A stretch of 13,935 nucleotides of DNA from contig JAPTWR010000083.1 of NCBI GenBank assembly GCA_028065135.1, forward strand, positions 1 to 13,935, written 5' to 3'. Each line of letters opens with the position of its first letter. The first letter of the stretch is position 1. This DNA is from Acidithiobacillus sp. GTDB taxonomy: Bacteria > Pseudomonadota > Gammaproteobacteria > Acidithiobacillales > Acidithiobacillaceae. The notes below the pieces were generated by a model. That model was not told the origin of the DNA. It was given only the letters and a program-made list of their open reading frames with translations, and made no database searches. Made by a program: the position numbers and the translations under genes. Shown in pieces: positions 2,950-13,487 of the stretch.

Positions 2950-5283
2950 TTACTGCGCCGTGGTTTCTTCGGCGATGGTACTGCCAGCACTCCCAGCATT
3001 CAGACCTTGTGCAACAACTTTCTGCGGCGGTTCAGAGCCACCGTTGCCACCACCAGAACCAGAACCGCTACCAGAGTCATTATTCTCTCGCTTCTGATCT
3101 TTTCCACCCATTATTCCGCCGACTTTCCCAGCATACTTGCCAACGACTCCACCGGCACCCGCTACTGCCAAAGTGGCCCCTCCGGCAACTTCTTCGGTAC
3201 CCAACCCTTGACCGGAGTGTCCACCGATCCATTGCGGAGCACGGTCGGCCAGGTGGGTGATGAGCTTCAGCACGGTTTTAATGAATAGAAACTCTGCACC
3301 GATGATGACCGCCAGCATGCTGCAGAATCCAATGATCCCGACCTGCGTACCGCCCATGCCGGCCAGAAACGCCTGTAACGCCTCTCCCACGAACCAGCCG
3401 CCGATGTCCATGATGAAGAACGCGAAGATGAAGCCCACGGTCAACAACAGTGGTCGGGCGATGATGCCAATGGCCGCCGAATAGCCGTAACTGGCCTGGG
3501 GTGGCGCGAAGCCTTCGCCCTCGGCATACACGTGGGCCGCCGCCCAGAGGACGGAGGCGACCATGAGTTCGACGACGAGGAACAGCCAGCCCACTATGGC
3601 GATCATCATGATGACGCCAGGGATGGCGGGGAAAACGTAGTGCAGGATGGCGCCTTCGCCAACCATAAATGCCCCAACGGTAAACGCGAGTTTGCCCAAC
3701 GGCAATGCCGCTGCCTTCAGCCCGCCGACAATCGCTTTGCCAACCATGCCCCCGAGAATGCCGCCGCCGACCGTTCCAGTCGGTCCGTCCACCTCGTCCG
3801 TCGTGCTTCCGGCGATGGCGCCCACTGCCTTTGCGCCATAAACGACGATCCTCGTTCCAACGCCCACGGCCATCAGTCCCTCGCCCCAGTGCTGCACTTT
3901 TGCCCCAAATGAGGCCACGTTGGACAGGGGGTCGCCACTGGTGAACAGCATCGGCATTTCCATAAGCCGCTTTCCCGCCCAAGAACTGCCTGTATTGGCG
4001 CCAGCACCGCCAACGGTGGCCACATTTACCGCCTGGGCTTGCTGACTGGACTGGTTCTGTTCTGCCTGATAAAGCTGAATCAATCCCTTCACGGCTTGGA
4101 TATACGGCTTGTAAAATGACCCAACGGAGCGCGCCATCGCGGTACTCGACGGCAGGTCCACCACAGCGTGCAGGGATTTGATCTGTGCCTGGGCCTTTGC
4201 GTTTATGTTTTCCAGCGTCCACCAGTAATAAGCGCTGCTCGCCCAGCCCAAGGAAGCTGAACTGGTGGCGAACGTTTGCAGTTGTTTCTTGTATTGTGTC
4301 CCACCGTATTGGCTTGCGGCAGTGTACGCTTCACCTTGTAAATTCTGGTACATGCTCACCAAACTCCCAAATTCGGCCGCGGAAGGCGGGGCACCATTGG
4401 CCTGGGCGTTCATCTGGACGAGCTTGTCAGCGTATGGCGCCAGGTCGCCCATCAACATCCCCACGTTCGCCCGTTCGTCCTGGCAGGCCTGCGTGTTTTG
4501 CGCAGTGGTAACGGTCGTTCCCGTGACGGCTCCATACGCATTCTTCACGGTCTGAACCGTATCGCCCCACAAATTGCCAAGCCATGACCCGCTGGGGGCG
4601 TCCGTCGATGACATATCACTGGAGCACTTAAAGGAAATGGTACCCAGTCCGTACTGAATGCCAGCCGTGCCGCCGCCCGCGGTCATTCCGTATACCCAAC
4701 TCCCAGAATAGCTATCGCCTACCCACAGCCATTGTGGAGTCAATTTCTGGTTTCCATTCTTTACAATATACTGCTGCGCGGTGGTATCGATCAGCGCCTT
4801 CTCGACAAACGCTTGTTCTTTCGCCTGATTCCCTTGATAGGGAATGATCATTCCGCCGTACTTTGGCACCTCCTGCACGAACGTGCTCCACACGTCGTCC
4901 GCCACCCCGATTCCCCAGTACACCACGACCAGCAAAATCACCTGAATCATGGCGAGACCCTTGGCCCAGGGGAGGGGAAACAGCATGAACCAGGTGGCCG
5001 GCCCCCGTATCGGCGCCCAGACGCTGTGATAGCGTTTCCCCAAAGGGACACCCTCGTGCGCCGTGGCCAAGCCACCAACCACGGCGGTGTACATCATGAT
5101 GGCGGAGACGTACATGAGCAGCGCGATGTCAATGACGCTGAACAACTGGCCCAGGATGGACCCAGGCCCGGAGGGCGCGGCACCGGATACGAACTTCCAC
5201 CAGCCGTTGCCCAGCAGCGAACTGATCATCTGCACGGAGATGTCACCGGAAGAGGGAATCAAGGATATGTTTGGGATGGTCAT
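2950..5283 (-). CDS. DotA/TraY-like integral membrane protein of an I-type type IV secretion system
   Basis: A 777-residue polytopic inner-membrane protein. Hydrophobic segments fall at about 46-74 and 109-128, then a long soluble loop (130-520, with cysteines at 220 and 267), then a C-terminal hydrophobic block at about 527-545, 553-587, 603-632 and 647-675. RAPQWIGG (681-688) resembles the motif that follows the last membrane segment in DotA/TraY proteins. The tail ends in a Gly/Ser-rich stretch (737-750). DotA (Legionella Dot/Icm) and TraY (IncI) are inner-membrane parts of the I-type channel, required for transfer. Its ATG has ACGGAGC 5 bases upstream and the 19-bp motif 27 bases upstream. 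It is last in the minus-strand block, with a terminator after it. The rest of the channel is not in the window. Confidence 0.82.
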   Translation of the reverse strand: MTIPNISLIPSSGDISVQMISSLLGNGWWKFVSGAAPSGPGSILGQLFSVIDIALLMYVSAIMMYTAVVGGLATAHEGVPLGKRYHSVWAPIRGPATWFMLFPLPWAKGLAMIQVILLVVVYWGIGVADDVWSTFVQEVPKYGGMIIPYQGNQAKEQAFVEKALIDTTAQQYIVKNGNQKLTPQWLWVGDSYSGSWVYGMTAGGGTAGIQYGLGTISFKCSSDMSSTDAPSGSWLGNLWGDTVQTVKNAYGAVTGTTVTTAQNTQACQDERANVGMLMGDLAPYADKLVQMNAQANGAPPSAAEFGSLVSMYQNLQGEAYTAASQYGGTQYKKQLQTFATSSASLGWASSAYYWWTLENINAKAQAQIKSLHAVVDLPSSTAMARSVGSFYKPYIQAVKGLIQLYQAEQNQSSQQAQAVNVATVGGAGANTGSSWAGKRLMEMPMLFTSGDPLSNVASFGAKVQHWGEGLMAVGVGTRIVVYGAKAVGAIAGSTTDEVDGPTGTVGGGILGGMVGKAIVGGLKAAALPLGKLAFTVGAFMVGEGAILHYVFPAIPGVIMMIAIVGWLFLVVELMVASVLWAAAHVYAEGEGFAPPQASYGYSAAIGIIARPLLLTVGFIFAFFIMDIGGWFVGEALQAFLAGMGGTQVGIIGFCSMLAVIIGAEFLFIKTVLKLITHLADRAPQWIGGHSGQGLGTEEVAGGATLAVAGAGGVVGKYAGKVGGIMGGKDQKRENNDSGSGSGSGGGNGGSEPPQKVVAQGLNAGSAGSTIAEETTAQ

Positions 5284-5310
5284 GGCATAGCTCCGTGTGA
5301 AAATATATTA

Positions 5311-5329
5311 ATGTGTGCCAAGCGGAAAC
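5311..5329 (-). promoter_or_regulatory. Copy 1 of the 19-bp dispersed motif (upstream of the DotA/TraY-like gene)
   Basis: The plus strand reads ATGTGTGCCAAGCGGAAAC. It lies in the 59-base gap between the coupling-protein stop and the DotA/TraY-like start, 27 bases before that ATG and oriented toward it. An AT-rich patch (5301-5310) separates motif and ribosome site. The other copies are at 7828, 11758, 11881 and 12330. Confidence 0.7.
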
Positions 5330-5342
5330 AGTGAGATCTGGA

Positions 5343-7445
5343 TCACTGCTCCGCTTCGTCCTCTTCCTCGTTTTCCCGTTGTTCTTCTTCTGCTGCTGGT
5401 TCGCTGGCAGGTTGCGGTGCCAGTTGCGGAAGCTGAAGCGGCGCTACCGATGCACCGGGCGTCGGCGCCATCATCTCGGTCATTACTTTTAGTATTTCAA
5501 ACCCCAATCCCGCACCTGGCATAATGGCATCCAGGGCATGTCCGGCCATGTGATCTGCAACGGCTTCACCAACATCAGGCGGGTCCGCGTCGGCCTGCGA
5601 TTGGGGTTGTTGCTGGTCGATGGCCTGCTGCGGTTGCATTTGCTGTGGCTGTGGTGGCTGGTCCAGCCGCCGTTTCGGGGCCTCGCTCATGGCTGATGGG
5701 TTAGGAATATCGACCTTCGGGGGTACTGCACCCCATACCGGCCGGGCATAGCGCGGCAGCACCCATCTTGCTTGATGCTCTTCTCGACTTCTTCTCTGAT
5801 TAGGATTTGCCTGGAAAGGCCAGTCCAGCAGCCCAACATGCTCGGACCCCGCCACGGTCAGAATCGCCCGCGGTCCCTTTTTTGTAACTTTCACTATCTG
5901 GCCAAACTGGCTGGGCAATACCGTATGTTCTTTTACTCTTTGATAGCTGCCCCCCTGGCTACTGCCTCCTCCCTGGCTACTACCAGACTGCACGTTCGTT
6001 GATGCCGCGTAACGCTCAAGGTCCCGCTCACCGATGAGTGATGCGGCCCATCGCTGGTCTTCAGGCTCGACGATGCGGCCAATGACCTTGGTTGCGGTCT
6101 GCATCGCCCAGCTTCTTGCTGTTGTCTTTGAATACTTCTCTTCTATTTGGTTGATGCCTTGACACCCCAACGCGATGCGAACGCCTTTGCTCCGAAGCAC
6201 TTCCAACGCGTCAGTAATAGATGGAATTTTCCCCATCCGTGGGACTTCATCCAAGATCAGCCAAATGCGCCTTTCTTCAGGCTGAACGTCCGGCAAATCC
6301 TCAAGTTTCAATACAATCTGCTCTATTAAAGAGGCGCACCAGGCTTCGCTTATCGATTTTGCTGAAGGACGGAATCCGAGGATGGCAATAGGGGGAACTT
6401 TGCCTGCAATCCATTTATTTACACTCCACTGTTTCTGTCTTGCCCGTTCTTTCAGATCGTCAGCCGCAACGCCGAGATTCACCACATGAGTGAGGTAAGC
6501 GGAGATGTTGGCAAGAAAAGACGTGGTCGTTTTGCTATCCGCTCCACCTGATATAAGTGACGCGGCCACTGGATTTTCTCTCGTTATTATTTCCTTGAGC
6601 ACTTTGAAATCAGCGAGAGCTTCGGCGCAGCGCTTGGCCAATTCCGCGAAGCCCCAAGCTTCGCCGTGTTCACGTTGAACATCGGATATGATGCCTGTAA
6701 CCAATGATCTGGCCCCATTGGTCCACATCGGATTGTCTGATTTTTCAGGCTCAGGAATCAAAGTGTTCGCTAGCGCCTCTGCGTCTAGGCGCGTGCGTAT
6801 ATCACGCCCCAGAGCCCACACTGCGCTGCGGTCATCCCACGGTGCCAGCAGTGCAAACTGCTTTCCGATTGCCTCCCCTTTCCCTATTTTTTGTTCAAAA
6901 TCTCCTTTGAAACTAAAAATGATGGCCTTGTCTCCACGTTCAATGATTTGGTTGATCATCGGCCAGAGGATCGTGGTTTTTCCTGCGCCTGAGCCGCCGA
7001 CGATAAGCATGTGAGAGGCTTCAAGGGCTTCGGTAGTTTTGATCTCTGGACGAATACGAATGCCTGCGTTTTTTCCTTTGACTGGCGGCGATGCCTCTTG
7101 GATAGCCTGCCGCATAAGCTTTGGTTTACGGGTAAGTTGGGATCCACGGATATGTATTTCGCTTGGGACGTATCCCGCTGCTAGGCCCAGAACGGAACCC
7201 GCTGCTAGGCCCAGAACGGAACCCGCTGCTAGGGGGATCAGGTATTCGGGGGGCAGGATGCCAAGGGCATGGATGGCGGCAAACAGTGTTTTGGGCATTA
7301 GGAATCCGCGAGTTTTCCACAACCCTATGCCCTCCCATGCGGTCGCGTATCCGACCAGGGCGCCGACCCCTGCGCCCAGCCCGATAACCTCGAAAAAGCC
7401 GGACCCCTTCGCGAATCTGGGATCGTTTTGGCCGCTGACTGTCAC
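5343..7445 (-). CDS. Type IV coupling protein (VirD4/TraD/TrwB family ATPase)
   Basis: A 700-residue coupling protein that would link the relaxase-DNA complex to the secretion channel and pump DNA. Two N-terminal hydrophobic segments (about 17-36 and 64-91) anchor it in the inner membrane. The P-loop GGSGAGKTT is at 150-158 and Walker B IWLILDE at 394-400. ALGCQGINQIEEKY (425-438) fits the conserved TrwB/TraD region after Walker B. The tail is unusual: Gln/Pro-rich (about 597-617) and strongly acidic at the end (EEEQRENEEEDEAEQ, 686-700). The GTG start overlaps the upstream stop (GTGA), implying translational coupling. A 24-bp tandem repeat duplicates AAGSVLGL within the second membrane segment. 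Closest by content to the TrwB/TraD group that partners MobF relaxases. Confidence 0.92.
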   Translation of the reverse strand: MTVSGQNDPRFAKGSGFFEVIGLGAGVGALVGYATAWEGIGLWKTRGFLMPKTLFAAIHALGILPPEYLIPLAAGSVLGLAAGSVLGLAAGYVPSEIHIRGSQLTRKPKLMRQAIQEASPPVKGKNAGIRIRPEIKTTEALEASHMLIVGGSGAGKTTILWPMINQIIERGDKAIIFSFKGDFEQKIGKGEAIGKQFALLAPWDDRSAVWALGRDIRTRLDAEALANTLIPEPEKSDNPMWTNGARSLVTGIISDVQREHGEAWGFAELAKRCAEALADFKVLKEIITRENPVAASLISGGADSKTTTSFLANISAYLTHVVNLGVAADDLKERARQKQWSVNKWIAGKVPPIAILGFRPSAKSISEAWCASLIEQIVLKLEDLPDVQPEERRIWLILDEVPRMGKIPSITDALEVLRSKGVRIALGCQGINQIEEKYSKTTARSWAMQTATKVIGRIVEPEDQRWAASLIGERDLERYAASTNVQSGSSQGGGSSQGGSYQRVKEHTVLPSQFGQIVKVTKKGPRAILTVAGSEHVGLLDWPFQANPNQRRSREEHQARWVLPRYARPVWGAVPPKVDIPNPSAMSEAPKRRLDQPPQPQQMQPQQAIDQQQPQSQADADPPDVGEAVADHMAGHALDAIMPGAGLGFEILKVMTEMMAPTPGASVAPLQLPQLAPQPASEPAAEEEQRENEEEDEAEQ
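7174..7233 (-). repeat. 24-bp in-frame tandem repeat inside the coupling-protein gene
   Basis: A 24-bp unit occupies 7174-7197, repeats exactly at 7198-7221, and continues for about 12 bases (7222-7233). On the minus strand it encodes AAGSVLGL twice (about residues 73-91) within the second predicted membrane segment. Two identical copies suggest a recent duplication or slippage that lengthens the segment by 8 residues without breaking the frame. Confidence 0.9.
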
Positions 7446-7792
7446 ACATCACCGACCTTGTTGGCATTGGCTTGCAGTGCATGCAGCAAACAGCGGGCAG
7501 TGCGAAGCGTGTTTTCCCGCATTTCGGCTTCGAGTTCTGGCCTCACTTGTCCAACGGCTTTCATGACCCAGTCCAAATGCGCCATGCCGTTATTAACGTC
7601 ATCCCCTTCCTGGGCAGACAATGTTTGCTCAGCAATGTGCAGTAACATGTCCCGACCGATTCCCTGAGCCACAGCAATATCAATTATTTCTCGATATTTT
7701 TCGGGCTGGTAAAAATCGTTCTGGATCACCTGGGCGGTTTCCGCAGATATCTGCTCCGGCGTCTTATGCTTGTTCTGTTCAAACCATGACAT
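7442..7792 (-). CDS. Hypothetical protein, 116 residues, between relaxase and coupling protein
   Basis: I do not recognise this protein. It is soluble, probably all-helical and acidic (TPEQISAETAQVIQND, LDWVMKAVGQVRPELEAEMREN), with no signal peptide, membrane segment or obvious HTH. It starts at ATG 7792 with AAGGAG 8 bases upstream, and its stop overlaps the coupling-protein GTG start (GTGA). Copy 2 of the 19-bp motif lies 35 bases upstream, so transcription can restart here. Coupling to the T4CP suggests an accessory or adaptor role in transfer; that is inferred only from position. Confidence 0.8.
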   Translation of the reverse strand: MSWFEQNKHKTPEQISAETAQVIQNDFYQPEKYREIIDIAVAQGIGRDMLLHIAEQTLSAQEGDDVNNGMAHLDWVMKAVGQVRPELEAEMRENTLRTARCLLHALQANANKVGDV

Positions 7793-7827
7793 GGCGTTGC
7801 TCCTTTTCCGTGGGTGGTACTACATAT

Positions 7828-7846
7828 ATATGTGCCAGGCGGAAAC
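7828..7846 (-). promoter_or_regulatory. Copy 2 of the 19-bp dispersed motif (upstream of the 116-residue protein)
   Basis: The plus strand reads ATATGTGCCAGGCGGAAAC. It overlaps the 12-bp palindrome ACATATATATGT (7822-7833). It sits in the 67-base gap between the relaxase stop and the 116-residue gene, 35 bases before that ATG and oriented toward it. Copy 4 at 11881 shares the flanking CTACATAT. Confidence 0.7.
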
Positions 7847-7859
7847 GCTGGTACCTAGC

Positions 7860-10800
7860 CTAGCTTCCGAGTTCGAGCTCCGCCTCTGGCTCGGGGGAGA
7901 ACTGATACCCCTCACGTTCAGTAATAGCAGCTTCGGTGGCTGGTTCGCCCACATGCTCCTGCTCTGGCTCCACCTCCAGTGAGCGCTTTTCGGCCAGGTC
8001 CCCCGCTTTGCCCAGATCATGATCCGCCTGCTGCCGCGCCTGGTGGATTTCTTCCATCTCTGGTGAAACCTGAGTCTTGGAAGCCTCCATCGCGCTCTGT
8101 TTTTCAGAGAACTTGCAGATCCCCTTGCAAAGCTTGTCTATGTCGTCAGTTATAATCTCCAGCTCATGCGTTTCTCGGGTCATGCCCACGTATGCCAAAT
8201 TCGCGCTTATCCCGCGCCCGCCACCCGTGAGCACAGGGATCGCTGTATGCTTCGTGCCGCCCTGACTGGCATGGGTTGTAATGGCATAGCTGTAGTCCAG
8301 CACTTCGGCCTTCTCCTGACTCAGCGTAACGGTCTGTCCATGATCTGTTTTAACCGATGCCTTGCCGTTTTCAACGATCACCGCCCCCGCTGTGCCATTG
8401 ATTAAATCCCGCGTTTTGTCGTTTTTTCGGAAGTACACCTGGTCGCCGTTTCGCAATTCCATTTCCCTTGCGGTGTATGCGGATATGCTGATTTTTACGG
8501 GGTTCACCTCCAGCGTTTGCTCTGGCTTTTCGCGGTTTTGTAATGTGAGCTTACCGCCGGACATAGCCACTACTGACCACTGCGACCCTTTTCCCGCCCC
8601 AACACCCGTGTCCTTGTCTGCGTAATCCCGATGGAACTCCACAATCACCGGTGACCCATCTTTGCTGACGTAATTCTCGGATTTCGTGGAGGACTCCCTG
8701 GTCAGGTCTAACTTGTCCAGTGCGGTGATTCGCACCGCGTCCCCACCCAATGCACCAGCGGTGTTTAACCCATCACGGATGTGGTGATTGATGGCTTGAC
8801 GCTTTTTATTAGTGTCCGCGATAAAATAGGTATCGGCGCGTTCCTGCGGCGACATAGATAGATATCTGGACGCTGCGACTTTCGCCAAGGCTTCATCTTT
8901 ATCCTGGCCTTTTTCTACATGCACCTGGGTCATAAACGGCTTCGCTAATTCGACGCCTTTCACAGCGTCTCCAGATGCGAAAGCCTGGGCAATCTTGAGC
9001 AATTCCGGCGCTGCCCGCTGACGCTGAACTTCATCAATCTTCACATGATCTATTGAACGGGTTTCCAGCAACTGCGCAAACGGCGTCCCGGCCTCGACGC
9101 TTTCTATTTGGTATGGATCACCCACAACCAACGTGCGGGCGTTCTCCGTATCCGCACGCTTGTAAAATCTGTCAAAGTCCTTGGCTGACACCATCCCGGC
9201 CTCATCCATGACGTATAAAATCTTCTGGGTTGGGTTGCCGGATTCATCCAGTGCCGCCTTACGCTGAAGGGCCGCGGCCAAGGTCAGCGTTTCGGTACAC
9301 CCTGCGCCCTCAAGCTCTTTTTTTGCTTTGGACGTCGGCGCAACGCCTATAACCTCAAAACCCGCCGCTTGATACTGAGCGACGATCACTTTCATTGATG
9401 TGGTTTTCCCGGCTCCTGACGAACCGACAACTCCTAAATGGCGGTCTGGCGAACAAAGGGCCAAGCCCACGGCGGCCTTTTGACCATCGCTGAACTTGAA
9501 CCCTTGTTTTTCTTCTTGCGTTGAGATGATCGCGTTTATTCGCGCGTCATCCCCTGGCCGTCGCAAACTCTGATCTCCGAATCGATCAGCACCCGCATCA
9601 CCATGCAGAACACTTGAATCTTCCCCGGTCTGGTTTGCATCCAGACTGCATTGGGACAACTCGCGCAGGCCGTTAACGGGGAATGTCCCAGTTGCTTCAA
9701 CGTTATTGACTGGGTTGTCATGGGCATATTTTCGTTTGCCATCTTGTAGCTCCTTTTCGTTCAATTGGATAACATCTAGTGGTTCCTGCGTTTCTACTTC
9801 CTGAACTGGATATATCGCTTCTGCCTTACCTCTTCCCTCCTTTCCCCTGTGTAAAATTTCTGCCTCGGTATAGATGGCGGATTTGGTGGTGAACTGGCGA
9901 TCGTTCAGCCCCTCAGCCTGACCGGCATACACCAGGCCAGCGACACGGGATTCGATGGCTTCATCGATGGCTTCAGGAGAAACGTCGCCCAGGCCTGCTG
10001 CCAAGGCTTCTGCCTTTAATGACTGCTCACTGAAAACGCTGTCGCGTTCACTGAGGTGGCGAATGGCGGATTTCAGCGCGTCTTCTGCTGTTATTTGCGA
10101 TGATTGGACGCCGGCGGCTTCACGGCGCAGGGCGGCATCATGAAGGGAATGAAGATCCATGTTTTTTTGCTCACGGAACTCTTTTCTCCATTCATATCTC
10201 TGGTCAATGTTGTTGAGGGTGGACTTGTGGCCTTTTGTCTTATTTTGTGCGGCCTGCCGTTCCTTGGCAGATACCCCATCCCGTTCACCACCGATCTCTT
10301 TTTTTATGTCCTGGGAGCGTGGAGAAAAGTATTCAATTTGCTCACGGGTGATGCCTGCAATTTCAAAATCAGTACCCTTGCCTTTTTCAATCTTGTATCC
10401 AAGCGCTTTGACCTCGCGGGCAAGCTCTGCCTTGTAAACGGCATCGGCGGCCATCTTTTTTTCGTTGTTATGACCCCAGTCCAGCTTGAGATTCACCCAT
10501 TTCCCATCCGCACGCTGCGTCATGTTTGAAATAATCGCGTGGGTGTGAAGATGAGGGGCTACCCGCCCCGTCGATGAGTCGCGGGCGTCTTCATGCACAT
10601 AAAGTCCAGCGGTTAAATTCCCGCTAAAGTCATTACCTTTGCCTCCGCCTTTGCCGATGCGCGCATGCACCATTTCCTGCTCTACAAAACGCATCGCAGC
10701 TCTGACGGCCTTTTGATGAGCCTGGACGATACGTGGATCTTCAACCGCCATGATGGATACGGATTTCGGGGCGGCGATGGTGAGCTCTTCGCCCATGCGC

Positions 10801-11078
10801 CGGGTTTCTGCAGTCTGACCCCCGCGCGTACTGATATCTTCACCTGTGTGCTTCACGGTGCCAGATAGCGCCCGGACCATATCTTCCACGGCCACCGCCC
10901 CGGCAAGGCCCTGTGCCTCGGCACCTTTTCCGAACCACTCCGACGGAGCGCCCCCGGCCATGGAATAGTAGCCTGTTGCACGTTGTTCCCCCGACCTGGT
11001 CAAGTGCTCCTCGTGCTTGCTCTCCATGTATTTGGCAACGTCCGCTGGAGAACCCGTAAGATGGGTATTCCGGATCAT
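7860..11078 (-). CDS. mobF: MobF-family conjugative relaxase-helicase (TrwC/TraI type)
   Basis: A 1072-residue bifunctional transfer initiator. The N-terminal relaxase has the three-histidine metal site PHLHTHA (H176, H178, H180) and candidate catalytic tyrosines Y37-Y38 (ATGYYS) just before SEWFGKGAEAQGLAG, the conserved stretch after the second tyrosine pair of TrwC. Only one tyrosine (Y17) stands where the first pair is expected. The helicase half has Walker A GSSGAGKTT (552-560), Walker B LYVMDEA (621-627), the GDP-Q motif VVGDPYQIE (651-659) and C-terminal RecD-like motifs YAITTHASQGGT (931-942) and AYVGMTRETHEL (962-973). It nicks oriT, stays covalently bound and unwinds the strand. ATG 11078 overlaps the FinO/ProQ stop (ATGA). 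The length is close to TrwC, and no acetylase/pilot extension as in F TraI is seen. Confidence 0.95.
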   Translation of the reverse strand: MIRNTHLTGSPADVAKYMESKHEEHLTRSGEQRATGYYSMAGGAPSEWFGKGAEAQGLAGAVAVEDMVRALSGTVKHTGEDISTRGGQTAETRRMGEELTIAAPKSVSIMAVEDPRIVQAHQKAVRAAMRFVEQEMVHARIGKGGGKGNDFSGNLTAGLYVHEDARDSSTGRVAPHLHTHAIISNMTQRADGKWVNLKLDWGHNNEKKMAADAVYKAELAREVKALGYKIEKGKGTDFEIAGITREQIEYFSPRSQDIKKEIGGERDGVSAKERQAAQNKTKGHKSTLNNIDQRYEWRKEFREQKNMDLHSLHDAALRREAAGVQSSQITAEDALKSAIRHLSERDSVFSEQSLKAEALAAGLGDVSPEAIDEAIESRVAGLVYAGQAEGLNDRQFTTKSAIYTEAEILHRGKEGRGKAEAIYPVQEVETQEPLDVIQLNEKELQDGKRKYAHDNPVNNVEATGTFPVNGLRELSQCSLDANQTGEDSSVLHGDAGADRFGDQSLRRPGDDARINAIISTQEEKQGFKFSDGQKAAVGLALCSPDRHLGVVGSSGAGKTTSMKVIVAQYQAAGFEVIGVAPTSKAKKELEGAGCTETLTLAAALQRKAALDESGNPTQKILYVMDEAGMVSAKDFDRFYKRADTENARTLVVGDPYQIESVEAGTPFAQLLETRSIDHVKIDEVQRQRAAPELLKIAQAFASGDAVKGVELAKPFMTQVHVEKGQDKDEALAKVAASRYLSMSPQERADTYFIADTNKKRQAINHHIRDGLNTAGALGGDAVRITALDKLDLTRESSTKSENYVSKDGSPVIVEFHRDYADKDTGVGAGKGSQWSVVAMSGGKLTLQNREKPEQTLEVNPVKISISAYTAREMELRNGDQVYFRKNDKTRDLINGTAGAVIVENGKASVKTDHGQTVTLSQEKAEVLDYSYAITTHASQGGTKHTAIPVLTGGGRGISANLAYVGMTRETHELEIITDDIDKLCKGICKFSEKQSAMEASKTQVSPEMEEIHQARQQADHDLGKAGDLAEKRSLEVEPEQEHVGEPATEAAITEREGYQFSPEPEAELELGS

Positions 11079-11653
11079 GGCGCAACCTCACCGACGGTCG
11101 GAGCCTCCCGCGCGGCTTTAGCAGCCCGTTGCCTTTTCCTTTTTGCGGTTCTCTTCGCCCTACGCGCCTGTTCTTGTTCCAGTAAGCGTTGTTCGTGCGC
11201 CAGACGTTTACGCTCCTTCGCCGCTTTTCGCTCCAATGCTTCGCGCTGCAATCGTTCGTGATAACGCAACGCGGCAACAAATGCGGTCATATCCTTTTCT
11301 GATATTTTTTGAACCGGTTTTCCATGCAGATCGTAACGGTGCTGTTTAAGAACGGCGGCAAGAGCATAATCAGGACGCTTCACCTGACTGCAATAGTCTT
11401 TCAATAATTTATCAATGACTGCGTTGATTACCGCTTTTTTATCTTTTCCGTGCGTTCTGCAAAGCACCTCGCGCATATCCTCACGAATGCGGTATTTCAG
11501 CGGCAGGATTTCGCCTTGCGTGAATACCGGGAATCGCATGACTTCCGTTTTTATCAGACGTCTGAACGCCTTCCCTTCAGGGCGCGACAGTTCCGTCTGT
11601 TCCGTCGCATCTGTGGGATTAACAATGACGGGTTCAGCTATATCATCAGTCAT
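11075..11653 (-). CDS. FinO/ProQ-like RNA chaperone
   Basis: A 192-residue protein. Residues about 26-120 match the ProQ/FinO RNA-binding domain: AFRRLIKTEVMRFPVF, GEILPLKYRIREDMRE, then HRYDLHGKPVQKIS. The C-terminus (131-183) is a strongly basic, probably coiled helix rich in Arg, Lys and Glu (KRLAHEQRLLEQEQARRAKR...). In F, FinO binds FinP and the traJ leader to repress transfer; ProQ-family proteins bind 3' hairpins of small RNAs. ATG 11653 is chosen for its strong AAGGAGGT site 5 bases upstream; an in-frame ATG at 11677 would add 8 residues but lacks one. It heads the minus-strand operon and its stop overlaps the relaxase start. Its partner RNA is not identifiable; the structured regions near 11851 and 12064-12152 are possible. 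Confidence 0.82.
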   Translation of the reverse strand: MTDDIAEPVIVNPTDATEQTELSRPEGKAFRRLIKTEVMRFPVFTQGEILPLKYRIREDMREVLCRTHGKDKKAVINAVIDKLLKDYCSQVKRPDYALAAVLKQHRYDLHGKPVQKISEKDMTAFVAALRYHERLQREALERKAAKERKRLAHEQRLLEQEQARRAKRTAKRKRQRAAKAAREAPTVGEVAP

Positions 11654-11673
11654 TGCCGACCTCCTTGTAATGG

Positions 11674-11727
11674 TCATATGAATACGTTTGCCCGGCGTTT
11701 ATCGTCGCGGTTGGAATGCTGCTCCAT
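11674..11727 (-). CDS. Possible 17-residue leader peptide upstream of the FinO/ProQ gene
   Basis: On the minus strand ATG 11727 is preceded by GAGGTGAA and encodes MEQHSNRDDKRRANVFI. Its TGA overlaps the upstream in-frame ATG (11677) of the FinO/ProQ gene in ATGA. Copy 3 of the 19-bp motif lies 30 bases before this ATG, the same spacing as at confirmed genes. The small ORF could be a translated leader that couples to or tunes FinO/ProQ synthesis. It is too short for any family match. Confidence 0.35.
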   Translation of the reverse strand: MEQHSNRDDKRRANVFI

Positions 11728-11757
11728 GTTTCACCTCGTCGTTTGTTGGTCTCACCA

Positions 11758-11776
11758 ATGTGTGCCAGGCGGAAAC
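11758..11776 (-). promoter_or_regulatory. Copy 3 of the 19-bp dispersed motif (upstream of the FinO/ProQ-relaxase operon)
   Basis: The plus strand reads ATGTGTGCCAGGCGGAAAC. It points toward the minus-strand operon, 30 bases before the leader ORF ATG and 104 bases before the FinO/ProQ ATG. It is the proximal of two copies preceding this operon. Confidence 0.7.
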
Positions 11777-11850
11777 ACCGGCACGCATATCGGATCTCAG
11801 AAGTCGTAATGCGGTTTCGTTTTTCTCCTCATGCCTGCTCTCCCATATGT

Positions 11851-11872
11851 GCCCCTGCGGAATTGCGGGGGC
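11851..11872. repeat. Hairpin between two motif copies (possible attenuator)
   Basis: GCCCCTGC (11851-11858) pairs with GCGGGGGC (11865-11872), one G-T pair, around GGAATT. On the minus strand it lies just after motif copy 4. It is followed at 11832-11797 by an 11-codon frame (MRRKTKPHYDF) with a weak ribosome site, which I do not call as a gene. The hairpin's left arm overlaps ATATGTGCCCCTGCGGAA (11845-11862), which partly resembles the 19-bp motif. A stem followed by a loose tail is the kind of RNA FinO/ProQ proteins bind; that link is speculation. Confidence 0.4.
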
Positions 11873-11880
11873 TTCTACAT

Positions 11881-11899
11881 ATATGTGCCAGGCGGAAAC
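11881..11899 (-). promoter_or_regulatory. Copy 4 of the 19-bp dispersed motif (distal copy upstream of the FinO/ProQ operon)
   Basis: The plus strand reads ATATGTGCCAGGCGGAAAC, overlapping the 10-bp palindrome ACATATATGT (11877-11886). It has the same orientation as copy 3, 123 bases further from the operon. Two tandem copies upstream of the relaxase operon suggest a doubled regulatory input or two start sites. Confidence 0.7.
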
Positions 11900-12320
11900 A
11901 GGCGGGCGGGCGGAGGAGGGCCAGTTGATTGAGGAGATGCTGCAGGTGACGCTGGCGGGGTCGCTACGCTCCTTTGCCCCGCCGCGTCGTAGCAGGGGAG
12001 GAGCGGCGGTTTCTGCCTGGACCGGCAAAAAACGGGACTAGTCGCACATAGGCAGGACAGAGGGCCGCGCAAGCGGCACGTCGCCATCCCTTGAGAGCGC
12101 AGCGAGCAAGGGGTGGGGCTGTGCGTGAAAAGGGTACTGCGCAGCGGTGCCCGTCTTCATACTGCTTTTAGCCTGCAAATAACCCAAAAAAGGCCTTATG
12201 CGGGTGATTCGCGGGCGTATGCCTGGCGTTTCGATGACGCTTTACAGACTGATAACATGGATTACGGGTGAATTAGGGAGCATTTGTTGGTGTTTCGTGG
12301 GCGATTCGCGGGTTGTTCCC
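11900..12320. other. Candidate origin-of-transfer region (divergent intergenic, hairpin-rich)
   Basis: This gap separates the FinO/relaxase operon from the TraK-L-M/Stb-like operon. In R388 the stb operon diverges from the transfer genes across oriT, and in RP4 traK diverges from traJ across oriT, so this is the best predicted oriT location. Hairpins: GGCGGGG/CCCCGCC (11954-11983), GCCGC-GCAA-GCGGC (12064-12077), CCATCCCTTG with CAAGGGGTGG (12084-12116), and GGGTAC/GTGCCC (12132-12152). GTTTCTGCCTGG at 12009-12020 partly resembles the 19-bp motif facing right. I cannot recognise a known nic sequence, so the exact site is not assigned. No convincing gene is seen here. Confidence 0.45.
12201..12312 (+). 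repeat. Degenerate direct repeats (GATTCGCGGG family) upstream of the HTH gene
   Basis: CGGGTGATTCGCGGG at 12201-12215 and TGGGCGATTCGCGGG at 12298-12312 share an exact GATTCGCGGG core. CGGGTGAATTAGGGA at 12265-12279 is a weaker intermediate copy. They precede a small HTH gene, as the StbA-binding direct repeats do in R388 and the TraK-bound region does in RP4. They may be binding sites for that protein, marking a centromere- or oriT-proximal array. Confidence 0.4.
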
Positions 12321-12329
12321 GGTGTTTTT

Positions 12330-12348
12330 GTTTCCGCTTGGCACACAT
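12330..12348 (+). promoter_or_regulatory. Copy 5 of the 19-bp dispersed motif (inverted, upstream of the plus-strand operon)
   Basis: The plus strand reads GTTTCCGCTTGGCACACAT, the exact reverse complement of copy 1. It lies 29 bases before the ATG at 12378 and points toward it. This is the only full copy on the opposite strand, and it precedes the only plus-strand operon in the transfer region, so motif orientation follows gene direction. Confidence 0.75.
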
Positions 12349-12377
12349 TAGCGAGGGTGCATTCAAGGAGGTGAAAA

Positions 12378-12740
12378 ATGGAAAGTTCACGGCTGTCTGC
12401 TCGGTTGTCCGCATATTTGAATGCGATTGATCTGGCGCGGCAGGCTGGGGTTACCTGGGCGCAAATAGGCGCACTTTTTGGAACCAGCGGGAAATATATG
12501 GCTGAGGCAGCGAAGACGGCGAAGATAAGGTATCGCGCTGAGGAACAATTGCCATTGCCATTGCCATTGCCATCCATACCAAACATACCAAAACCGCAGC
12601 CGCCGTCACAGGTTACTACACCAGAGGCACAAAGCCGGACTTCTTCGGTAGTACAGAGTGGTGGCGTTGATAGTAGTAGTGGCGGTGACAATGCGGAACC
12701 AAAAGCATCGCGCATCAAGTATATCGGACCTCAATCTTAA
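12378..12740 (+). CDS. Small HTH DNA-binding protein, TraK/StbA-like by position
   Basis: A 120-residue protein in two parts. Residues about 10-52 form a likely helix-turn-helix (LNAIDLARQAGVTWAQIGAL then FGTSGKYMAEAAKTAKIRY). From about 57 the chain is Pro/Ser-rich and probably disordered, opening with LPLPLPLP encoded by a hexanucleotide repeat. AAGGAGGTG lies 5 bases before the ATG and motif copy 5 lies 29 bases upstream. First gene of a three-gene operon with a ParA-like ATPase second, matching the layout of RP4 traKLM and R388 stbABC, whose first products bind DNA near oriT. The GATTCGCGGG repeats upstream are candidate targets. The functional analogy is from architecture; I do not claim sequence homology. 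Confidence 0.72.
   Translation: MESSRLSARLSAYLNAIDLARQAGVTWAQIGALFGTSGKYMAEAAKTAKIRYRAEEQLPLPLPLPSIPNIPKPQPPSQVTTPEAQSRTSSVVQSGGVDSSSGGDNAEPKASRIKYIGPQS
12549..12572 (+). repeat. Hexanucleotide tandem repeat TTGCCA x4 within the HTH gene
   Basis: Four exact copies of TTGCCA encode LPLPLPLP at the junction between the HTH domain and the disordered tail. The 6-bp unit keeps the frame, so slippage would change linker length without inactivating the protein. Confidence 0.9.
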
Positions 12741-12752
12741 AGGAGTATTGCA

Positions 12753-13487
12753 ATGAACAAGAGCATTTTGGTAGTGCACGGGGATAAGGGGGGCGTCGGC
12801 AAATCCACATTTGCCGCGCTCGTTACAGATTATGTGCTTCACACGTTTGGAAAGGTTGCGCTGGTGGAAGGGGATAGCACCATTTTTGATGTGGCTCCGC
12901 GATTTGAGAATACGGACGGGGTGGACATTATGGCCGTGGATTTGGCGCGACCAGATATGTCGGAAGACGCGATTGTTGCACTGTTTGATGAAATCGAACG
13001 CGGCGTTGATGGTGATTCCCATATCATCATAAATACGCCCGCGAGTGCGGGAAAGACGCTTGATGCACAGGCGGACCTTATTGTTCCGGCCATCGAAGGT
13101 CTGGGCTATAAACTGGTGGTTTGCTGGATGGTAGACGTTGGTGAAGATAGCGCGCGGCTCAGTATGCAAAGCAAGCTCTGTGAACTCGCCAATCTGAAAG
13201 TGGCGGTGCGGAATACCCGGTTAAAGGCCGCCGCCGCATTGCCCTGGGCTACTCACAAAGCCCGTGATGCGTGGTTGAAAAGCGGCGGTCTGGAGGTGAC
13301 GTTGCCAGGCCTCACGGAGCGCGTAGTTAGCAAGGTCCGGGAAATTCAAATGCCGTTTTCCCAGATCGTGACTGCGACGGTGAAAGATGTGGACCTCTCC
13401 ATTATCGAAAGGCAGGCCATTAGACGTTGGGTAGACAATTCATGGGCTGATGGTGTGGCTCCAATTTATCAGGCATTGGGGGGATAG
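12753..13487 (+). CDS. ParA/MinD-like ATPase, TraL/StbB-type
   Basis: A 244-residue P-loop ATPase with the deviant Walker A motif KGGVGKST at residues 12-19, right after an N-terminal strand (SILVVHGD). VALVEGDST (35-43) fits switch I and HIIINTPASAG (88-98) the Walker B/switch II region. The length equals RP4 TraL (about 241). AAAGGAG lies 7 bases before the ATG, 12 bases after the upstream stop, so it is co-transcribed with the HTH gene. ParA-type proteins drive DNA segregation; R388 StbB affects plasmid positioning and transfer, and TraL is a transfer accessory ATPase. No ParB-like gene is seen next to it, which favours the transfer-type TraL/StbB reading over classical ParAB partition. 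Confidence 0.85.
   Translation: MNKSILVVHGDKGGVGKSTFAALVTDYVLHTFGKVALVEGDSTIFDVAPRFENTDGVDIMAVDLARPDMSEDAIVALFDEIERGVDGDSHIIINTPASAGKTLDAQADLIVPAIEGLGYKLVVCWMVDVGEDSARLSMQSKLCELANLKVAVRNTRLKAAAALPWATHKARDAWLKSGGLEVTLPGLTERVVSKVREIQMPFSQIVTATVKDVDLSIIERQAIRRWVDNSWADGVAPIYQALGG

Follow-up and report, generated by a model that had tools for sequence, protein, structure and literature searches.

The window analysed here, a 13,935-nt stretch of Acidithiobacillus sp. contig JAPTWR010000083.1, is taken to be the left 14 kb of an integrative element of Acidithiobacillus, either an integrative and conjugative element or an integrative and mobilizable element (IME), judging by its gene content and by the named relatives of its relaxase and StbA-position protein. 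A tRNA-Cys gene (81–154) lies near the left end, where a tyrosine integrase is also encoded. The minus strand carries genes for a DotA/TraY family protein (2950–5283; TIGR04346, E = 2.2e-159), a TrwB/TraD-type coupling protein (5343–7445; PF10412, E = 2.5e-58), a 116-amino-acid (aa) protein without a family match, overlapping trwB (7442–7792), a TrwC relaxase–helicase of the MOBF type, which is also that of the R388 relaxase (7860–11078; PF08751, E = 2.6e-69; MobF model above cut-off), and a ProQ/FinO-domain protein, overlapping trwC (11075–11677; PF04352, E = 8.3e-20). On the plus strand follow the gene for a 120-aa protein in the StbA/TraK position, with a predicted three-helix N terminus (12378–12740), and a ParA/TraL (StbB)-like ATPase gene with weak CbiA/ParA and TraL matches (12753–13487). 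Between these genes lie five copies of the 19-mer ATRTGTGCCARGCGGAAAC, the subject of this report.

Motif copies in the window

The initial annotation had listed five copies of the motif, and all proved exact: a scan of the window at up to three mismatches returns five matches, each identical to ATRTGTGCCARGCGGAAAC, against a mean of 0.02 in dinucleotide-shuffled sequence, and the count of five is reached in none of 200 shuffles. Copy 1 (5311–5329, minus strand), which reads GTTTCCGCTTGGCACACAT in coding orientation, is flanked by the DotA/TraY start at 5283 and the TrwB end at 5343 and lies 27 nt 5′ of the DotA/TraY ATG. Copy 2 (7828–7846, minus) is flanked by the start of the 116-aa gene at 7792 and the TrwC end at 7860, 35 nt 5′ of the ATG of the former. 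Copies 3 (11758–11776, minus) and 4 (11881–11899, minus) both fall within the gene-free stretch 11678–12377. Copy 3 stands 30 nt 5′ of a 17-codon leader frame (11674–11727, minus) that runs into the ProQ/FinO gene, its stop overlapping the start of that gene, and copy 4 stands 48 nt 5′ of an 11-codon frame; as genes, both short frames are doubtful. Copy 5 (12330–12348), the sole plus-strand copy, lies 29 nt 5′ of the StbA-like gene at 12378. All five copies sit outside the main genes and point toward the next frame, and a Shine–Dalgarno (SD)-like tetramer precedes the ATG after each. With the main genes considered, the gene map agrees at five of five sites with the earlier description of the copies as intergenic and facing the next frame, and the five motif-to-ATG distances given there are confirmed.

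A stem-loop, GCCCCCGCAATTCCGCAGGGGC (11851–11872, minus), begins 8 nt downstream of copy 4; overlapping it, a possible degenerate copy with one inserted base (about 11845–11862, minus) was noticed by eye, without statistics. The relaxase gene has no copy directly upstream and overlaps the ProQ gene (at 11075–11078), itself preceded by two copies. The window scan finds no copy before the plus-strand genes at the left end, which encode the integrase, a GNAT acetyltransferase and a 148-aa open reading frame (ORF). The motif had been called element-wide; this holds for the transfer module but not for the left-end genes, and 'transfer-module-wide' fits the part of the element seen.

A bipartite box in related transfer modules

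To reach related genomes, 360 genomes drawn from one class were queried with a tRNA-Gly/tRNA-Cys sequence. The best match (genome G717) spans 154 bases at 90%, and all 31 genomes of its order were then searched; from this match, and from a G802 protein 100% identical to an A. ferrianus protein, the order is probably Acidithiobacillales. When up to three mismatches are allowed, 23 of the 31 genomes have matches to the 19-mer, 58 in total, and 14 of these are clustered, on two contigs only: six within 3263–12706 of G802:C16 and eight within 17315–28541 of G805:C6. Each cluster is a transfer module containing relatives of trwC, trwB and stbB. The two relaxases are 75% identical to each other, and each is 33–34% identical to the window relaxase over the best segment. 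On both contigs the near copies are confined to the transfer module, and none precedes the listed primase, integrase or cargo genes. Random placement inside genes, named beforehand as the pattern that would speak against a regulatory site, is not seen; two of the G802/G805 copies overlap the 3′ end of the upstream frame.

All 19 sites of the three elements (window, G802 and G805:C6) have GTTTCCG-N4-GCACA in common, with a T before GTTTCCG in 18 of them and partial conservation at positions 17–19 and 22–24. The four free bases read CYTG in the window, ATTG or CTTG at five of six G802 sites and CTCT at six of eight G805 sites, so that copies resemble one another more within an element than across elements. 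A G802 copy with N4 = ACGC overlaps the 3′ end of the upstream frame and keeps both blocks.

A parallel family emerged from a de novo repeat search on another G805 contig, C883, whose relaxase is 38.6% identical to that of the window over 1160 aligned positions. Its four copies of TTTGAATGSCNRCACCTR are placed as in the window, three on one strand and one inverted 5′ of a StbA-like gene. Aligned without gaps, they differ in the left half (TTTGAATG), whereas three of the four keep GCAC, the other has ACAC, and the YA after it is mostly retained. An exchanged left half beside a mostly retained right half is as expected if specificity resides in the left half, and its occurrence between two elements binned in one genome suggests divergence of control specificity. 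This parallel set, together with the recurrence in G802 and G805, strengthens the earlier claim of one site common to the relaxase, coupling, channel and StbA/TraK-like operons.

With the four C883 sites the set grows to 23. Over the range −19 to +60, information above 0.5 bit is found at positions 0–27, with the exceptions of weak columns at 55 and 60 and, when C883 is included, −7. An SD site followed by an ORF of at least 45 aa lies 20–55 nt downstream at 21 of 23 sites, compared with one of 23 on the opposite strand and 231–287 of 2000 random positions per locus, the limits of this test having been chosen after the sites had been inspected; the two sites that fail are window copies 3 (11758) and 4 (11881), followed by frames of 17 and 11 codons. 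Start codons, as picked by script, lie 23–52 nt from the sites. At 8 of 23 sites the motif starts 2–13 nt past the stop of a same-strand upstream ORF and leaves little intergenic space for a separate promoter. Nine of the 23 sites have a stem-loop of at least six pairs, differing in sequence from site to site, that begins 4–9 nt past the motif. In 300 mononucleotide shuffles such sites average 0.24 and never exceed 2, and the same test on the upstream flank gives 2; the limits were again set after inspection. Folding energy gives a weaker signal, with z ≤ −1.8 in 8 of 23 leaders.

The comparison took in 17 stretches from 13 relaxase regions, both clusters among them, and all 13 contain a relative of the stbB-like ATPase; the 11 non-cluster regions have no 19-mer at up to three mismatches, and three of them have one match each at four. 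A search for 18-mers with at least four copies within three mismatches, in parts of four regions and the window, recovered the C883 family and the window motif and otherwise low-complexity repeats. A second, for 17-mers with at least three copies within two mismatches, found no comparable box in parts of eight regions; G826b and G821b were scanned only for the 19-mer. Other candidates were set aside: the repeats of G805:C25 have the appearance of a terminator-type block, those of G805:C590 are located in trwB, downstream of trwB and in stbB, and the 22 viral-contig stretches with a 16-mer have a single match apiece, judged to be chance. At locus L197 a block GTAGCACAGAAAA...GGGAGCC...GGCTCCC with a T-rich end, terminator-like, occurs several times in one element (2765, 5665 as a variant, 17804 and 19409).

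A candidate transcription-start box

On these comparisons we consider the motif, with a probability of roughly one half, to be a transfer-module-specific transcription-start box read by an element-linked factor. A trans-acting factor would recognise TGTTTCCG and GCACA on one face of double-stranded DNA, the two blocks lying one helical turn apart with four free bases between them. Together with RNA polymerase it would start RNA a few bases downstream, at about motif position 24–27; the RNA would open with a purine-rich stretch, often with a stabilising stem-loop, followed by the SD site and the first gene, and the coupling-protein, DotA/TraY, ProQ–relaxase and StbAB operons would be switched together. 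What we infer is that the box works at the level of DNA and marks the start of transcription, and that its reader is element-linked and not the same in every element. The reading is supported by the persistence of the seven- and five-base blocks, at a fixed N4 spacing, in the G802 and G805:C6 elements, whose relaxases are 33–34% identical to that of the window over the best segment.

A further step would be to see in the box a private Acidithiobacillus promoter class, a bipartite site of about 25 bp with an exchanged left half and a common right half, served by an initiation factor that is neither σ70 nor σ54 in geometry, either an element-linked divergent sigma-like protein or some other factor. 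This is a minority possibility. If true, co-resident elements would keep their transfer regulons separate, and, were the reader a new initiation factor, cellular bacteria would gain one more promoter type.

By its spacing the box matches neither a σ70 nor a σ54 promoter. It does not offer σ70 hexamers 16–18 bp apart in the sense direction, and none of the ten −35/−10 pairs in the window (shuffle mean 8.5, s.d. 2.9) overlaps a copy. The TGGCAC of the window resembles a σ54 −24 box, yet its first G is a G in only 10 of 19 sites, the GG is lost in the other elements, and the window copies have no GC at the −12 distance. The earlier description of the site as directional, non-palindromic and of neither class is strengthened by the 6 + 8 copies with the same placement in two other elements. 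Several further candidates were rejected. For an extracytoplasmic-function-type −35 on the opposite strand, nothing is conserved at the −10 distance; an integron attC site does not match in sequence; and an oriT or att site is set aside because the copies are multiple and stand before genes. No match to PF00940 (T7-type polymerase) occurs in the 31 genomes of the order, a search in which control genomes gave no match either.

Several observations weigh against a start box. The motif has no 16–18 bp partner (TATAAT-like peak, mean 3.09 of 6; TTGACA-like, 3.65 of 6, inside the motif), and to our knowledge the block spacing matches no sigma factor. The genes trwC, trwB and stbB, present in all three motif elements, occur also in motif-free elements. 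Loose matches outside the clusters exceed the reversed-pattern control, both for the 19-mer (44 scattered matches, 42 of them with three mismatches, versus 8) and for the bipartite pattern at up to two mismatches in the 31 genomes (466 versus 278; 480 matches in all, 14 being the known clusters, with individual matches listed as far as G807). This excess is likely due to composition but could also reflect host-wide use of the motif; in 57 genomes of another order, at up to one mismatch, the bipartite pattern has 27 matches versus 24 for the reversed control, and among the 26 of 44 scattered sites tested, six pass the SD and ORF test (opposite strand, one). As for the leader, 14 of 23 sites, including four of five in the window (copy 4 passes), fail the stem-loop test, and the folding energies of the five window leaders are unremarkable. 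Finally, repressor operators or RNA leader signals would likewise yield directional placement.

The first of these alternatives, an operator at which a bound element-borne repressor shuts ordinary promoters upstream of or overlapping the box, is unlikely but has precedent in its layout: repressor networks typically show several copies upstream of transfer operons, and the StbA repeats of R388 lie in three further promoters (PMC3098194). An ordinary promoter is hard to place, however. No second promoter element is conserved around the sites; at the 8 of 23 sites that begin 2–13 nt past the previous stop, it would fall in the upstream gene; and the ten σ70-like pairs of the window are near the shuffle mean besides avoiding the copies.

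Somewhat less credible is a post-transcriptional leader signal, in which a small RNA acting with ProQ/FinO, or an RNA-binding protein, would bind the transcribed motif. The position of the sites 23–52 nt before start codons, some with stem-loops nearby, would suit it, as would the ProQ/FinO-domain proteins encoded by the window and G802 elements; but no ProQ relative is found at E 1e-4 in 40 kb around the G805:C6 module. Nor is a partner RNA apparent: outside the sites, the 8-nt complement of the left half (CGGAAACA) is missing from the window and from 20.5 kb of G802, and 33.5 kb of G805 has one, inside trwB. Over the 68 kb of the three motif elements, this near-absence leaves no antisense RNA for the left half visible (C883, whose left half differs, has two in 14.5 kb). 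The constant N4 gap with free sequence also seems to fit recognition of a DNA face better. The initial annotation had offered an undescribed promoter or an activator or repressor site. This reading is partly supported: the case for a shared regulatory site is strengthened, and the site may act as a promoter, as an activator or repressor site, or as an RNA leader signal.

Improbable in its specific form, and a special case of the start box whose odds overlap with those above, is a promoter for an element-encoded σ70-family factor like that of G802 (locus L183, 19050–19862). This protein has a region 4 helix-turn-helix and, as a low-confidence model, matches sigma factors over its whole length with large r.m.s.d.; it has no Pfam region 2 match. 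Its family is small (14 clusters found), with recognition helices of two alternative types. The G802 element thus encodes a candidate of the kind that the initial annotation suggested looking for; none was found in G805. As a second sigma factor we rejected a protein of G805:C883 (locus L189, 12306–13295) with a Sigma70_r4_2 match above cut-off and a DnaJ-like N terminus, which has no region 2 match; its gene sits between a DNA-binding-like gene and a primase-like gene.

Very improbable, finally, is the StbA/TraK-like protein (12378–12740) as the reader, the copies then serving, like stbDRs, in both regulation and segregation. In its favour, one copy stands before stbA itself, the protein has a predicted N-terminal three-helix unit (pLDDT block means 69–89), and in R388 the repeats bound by StbA precede the operon that encodes it (PMC3098194). 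Against it, the motif is shared across three elements with dissimilar StbA-position proteins (mutual blastp without a match at 1e-4) and is absent within four mismatches from 40 kb around G820:C93, whose StbA is 46% identical to that of G802; separate short repeats, seen by eye, precede stbA in G802, C883 and G820. The motif does not track a cognate StbA, as an R388-type system would require. The window protein has 16 relatives, of which both named ones are from Acidithiobacillus sp., and a fold search with it gave no significant match.

Known systems and the carrying element

Among the closest known systems are activator boxes. AcaCD is FlhDC-like, and the SetCD activator boxes of SXT are reportedly of the same kind as AcaCD boxes; no FlhDC-type activator is found among the scanned proteins of the window, the left 14 kb of the element. 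Promoters of phage-type single-subunit RNA polymerases (T7 class) are contiguous sites of about 20–25 bp, specific on the left and common on the right, with a 5′ stem-loop and a ribosome site downstream; the present box resembles them in this layout and differs in sequence. AcaCD boxes stand before the transfer operons of IncA/C plasmids and in islands that these mobilise, and they share with the present box the use of one box type for many transfer operons, with genes in box orientation (PMC4207636). For AcaCD the motif is situated 5′ of the transcription start, in a class 2 activator profile (PMC4207636), whereas the box described here lies 23–52 nt from the start codon. The R388 stbDRs are likewise repeated element-specific sites before the stb operon and three other promoters and adjoin oriT, but form two sets of five 9-bp repeats (PMC3098194), whereas the present boxes are single 19-bp bipartite sites with no sign of being read by StbA.

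Regulon boxes as such have precedent in mobile elements; for the one described here, with its geometry and reader, we know of none. We found no published description of a one-turn bipartite geometry near the gene start, with this stem-loop position and an exchanged left half, and four literal 16-mers taken from the motif are absent from the main texts of the open papers searched, subscription journals and supplements lying outside the scope of that search. Little literature was found on transfer control in biomining acidophiles. As a sequence handle, the box can help to find a mobilization regulon, to catalogue elements under shared control and to track down its trans-acting reader.

All named relatives of the window relaxase above 36% identity belong to Acidithiobacillus, and TraI of A. 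caldus SM-1 (P0010) is 84% identical to it. The same strain carries IMEAcaSM.1, an 81-kb integrated element for which the published description lists VirD2, VirD4 and TraY (PMC3826726); like the window element, it is integrated and has a relaxase, coupling protein and TraY gene set, but its relaxase is called VirD2 and its target is tRNA-Ser, in contrast to MOBF and tRNA-Cys here. The 84%-identical TraI presumably belongs to IMEAcaSM.1. The word 'promoter' does not occur in the main text of PMC3826726. In the plasmid collection there is no near DNA match to the window and no match for the StbA or ProQ proteins; DotA has matches in 350 records, all below 60% identity, and TrwC and TrwB stay below 60% throughout the best 5000 records for each. 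On the plasmid whose relaxase matches best, from Acidiphilium, mobF adjoins a P-loop NTPase gene, and no coupling protein is annotated within a 26.9-kb stretch. A relaxase search of genome contigs named no Acidithiobacillus among its best 80 loci (top identity 40%), and one of viral contigs gave one weak locus.

Some features of these loci stand apart from the box. Two copies of GGGYGATTCGCGGG, seen by eye at 12200–12217 and 12298–12316, lie 5′ of the StbA-like gene of the window and may be StbA sites distinct from the 19-mer. Arrays of short repeats of about 10–11 bp, in stbDR-like placement, precede stbA in L183 of G802 (12500–12680, CCGCAAACC-like) and in L189 of G805:C883 (5800–5960, AAAGCGAAGG-like). 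Between the divergent operons of L183, at about 12415–12453, an inverted repeat CACCC-GTCA-GGGTG is followed by CGATTGTGTG, with similar sequence in G805:C6 and C883, all by eye; the inverted repeat resembles an arm of a MOBF oriT such as that of R388. The ProQ/FinO-domain gene of the window (11075–11677) lies in the relaxase operon behind the 17-codon leader, and its G802 relative is near the relaxase too. The DotA/TraY gene (2950–5283), type IVB-like, is combined with a MOBF relaxase (7860–11078) and a TrwB-type coupling protein. At the tRNA-Cys end of the element, the GNAT acetyltransferase gene (1276–1827) overlaps the integrase stop codon.

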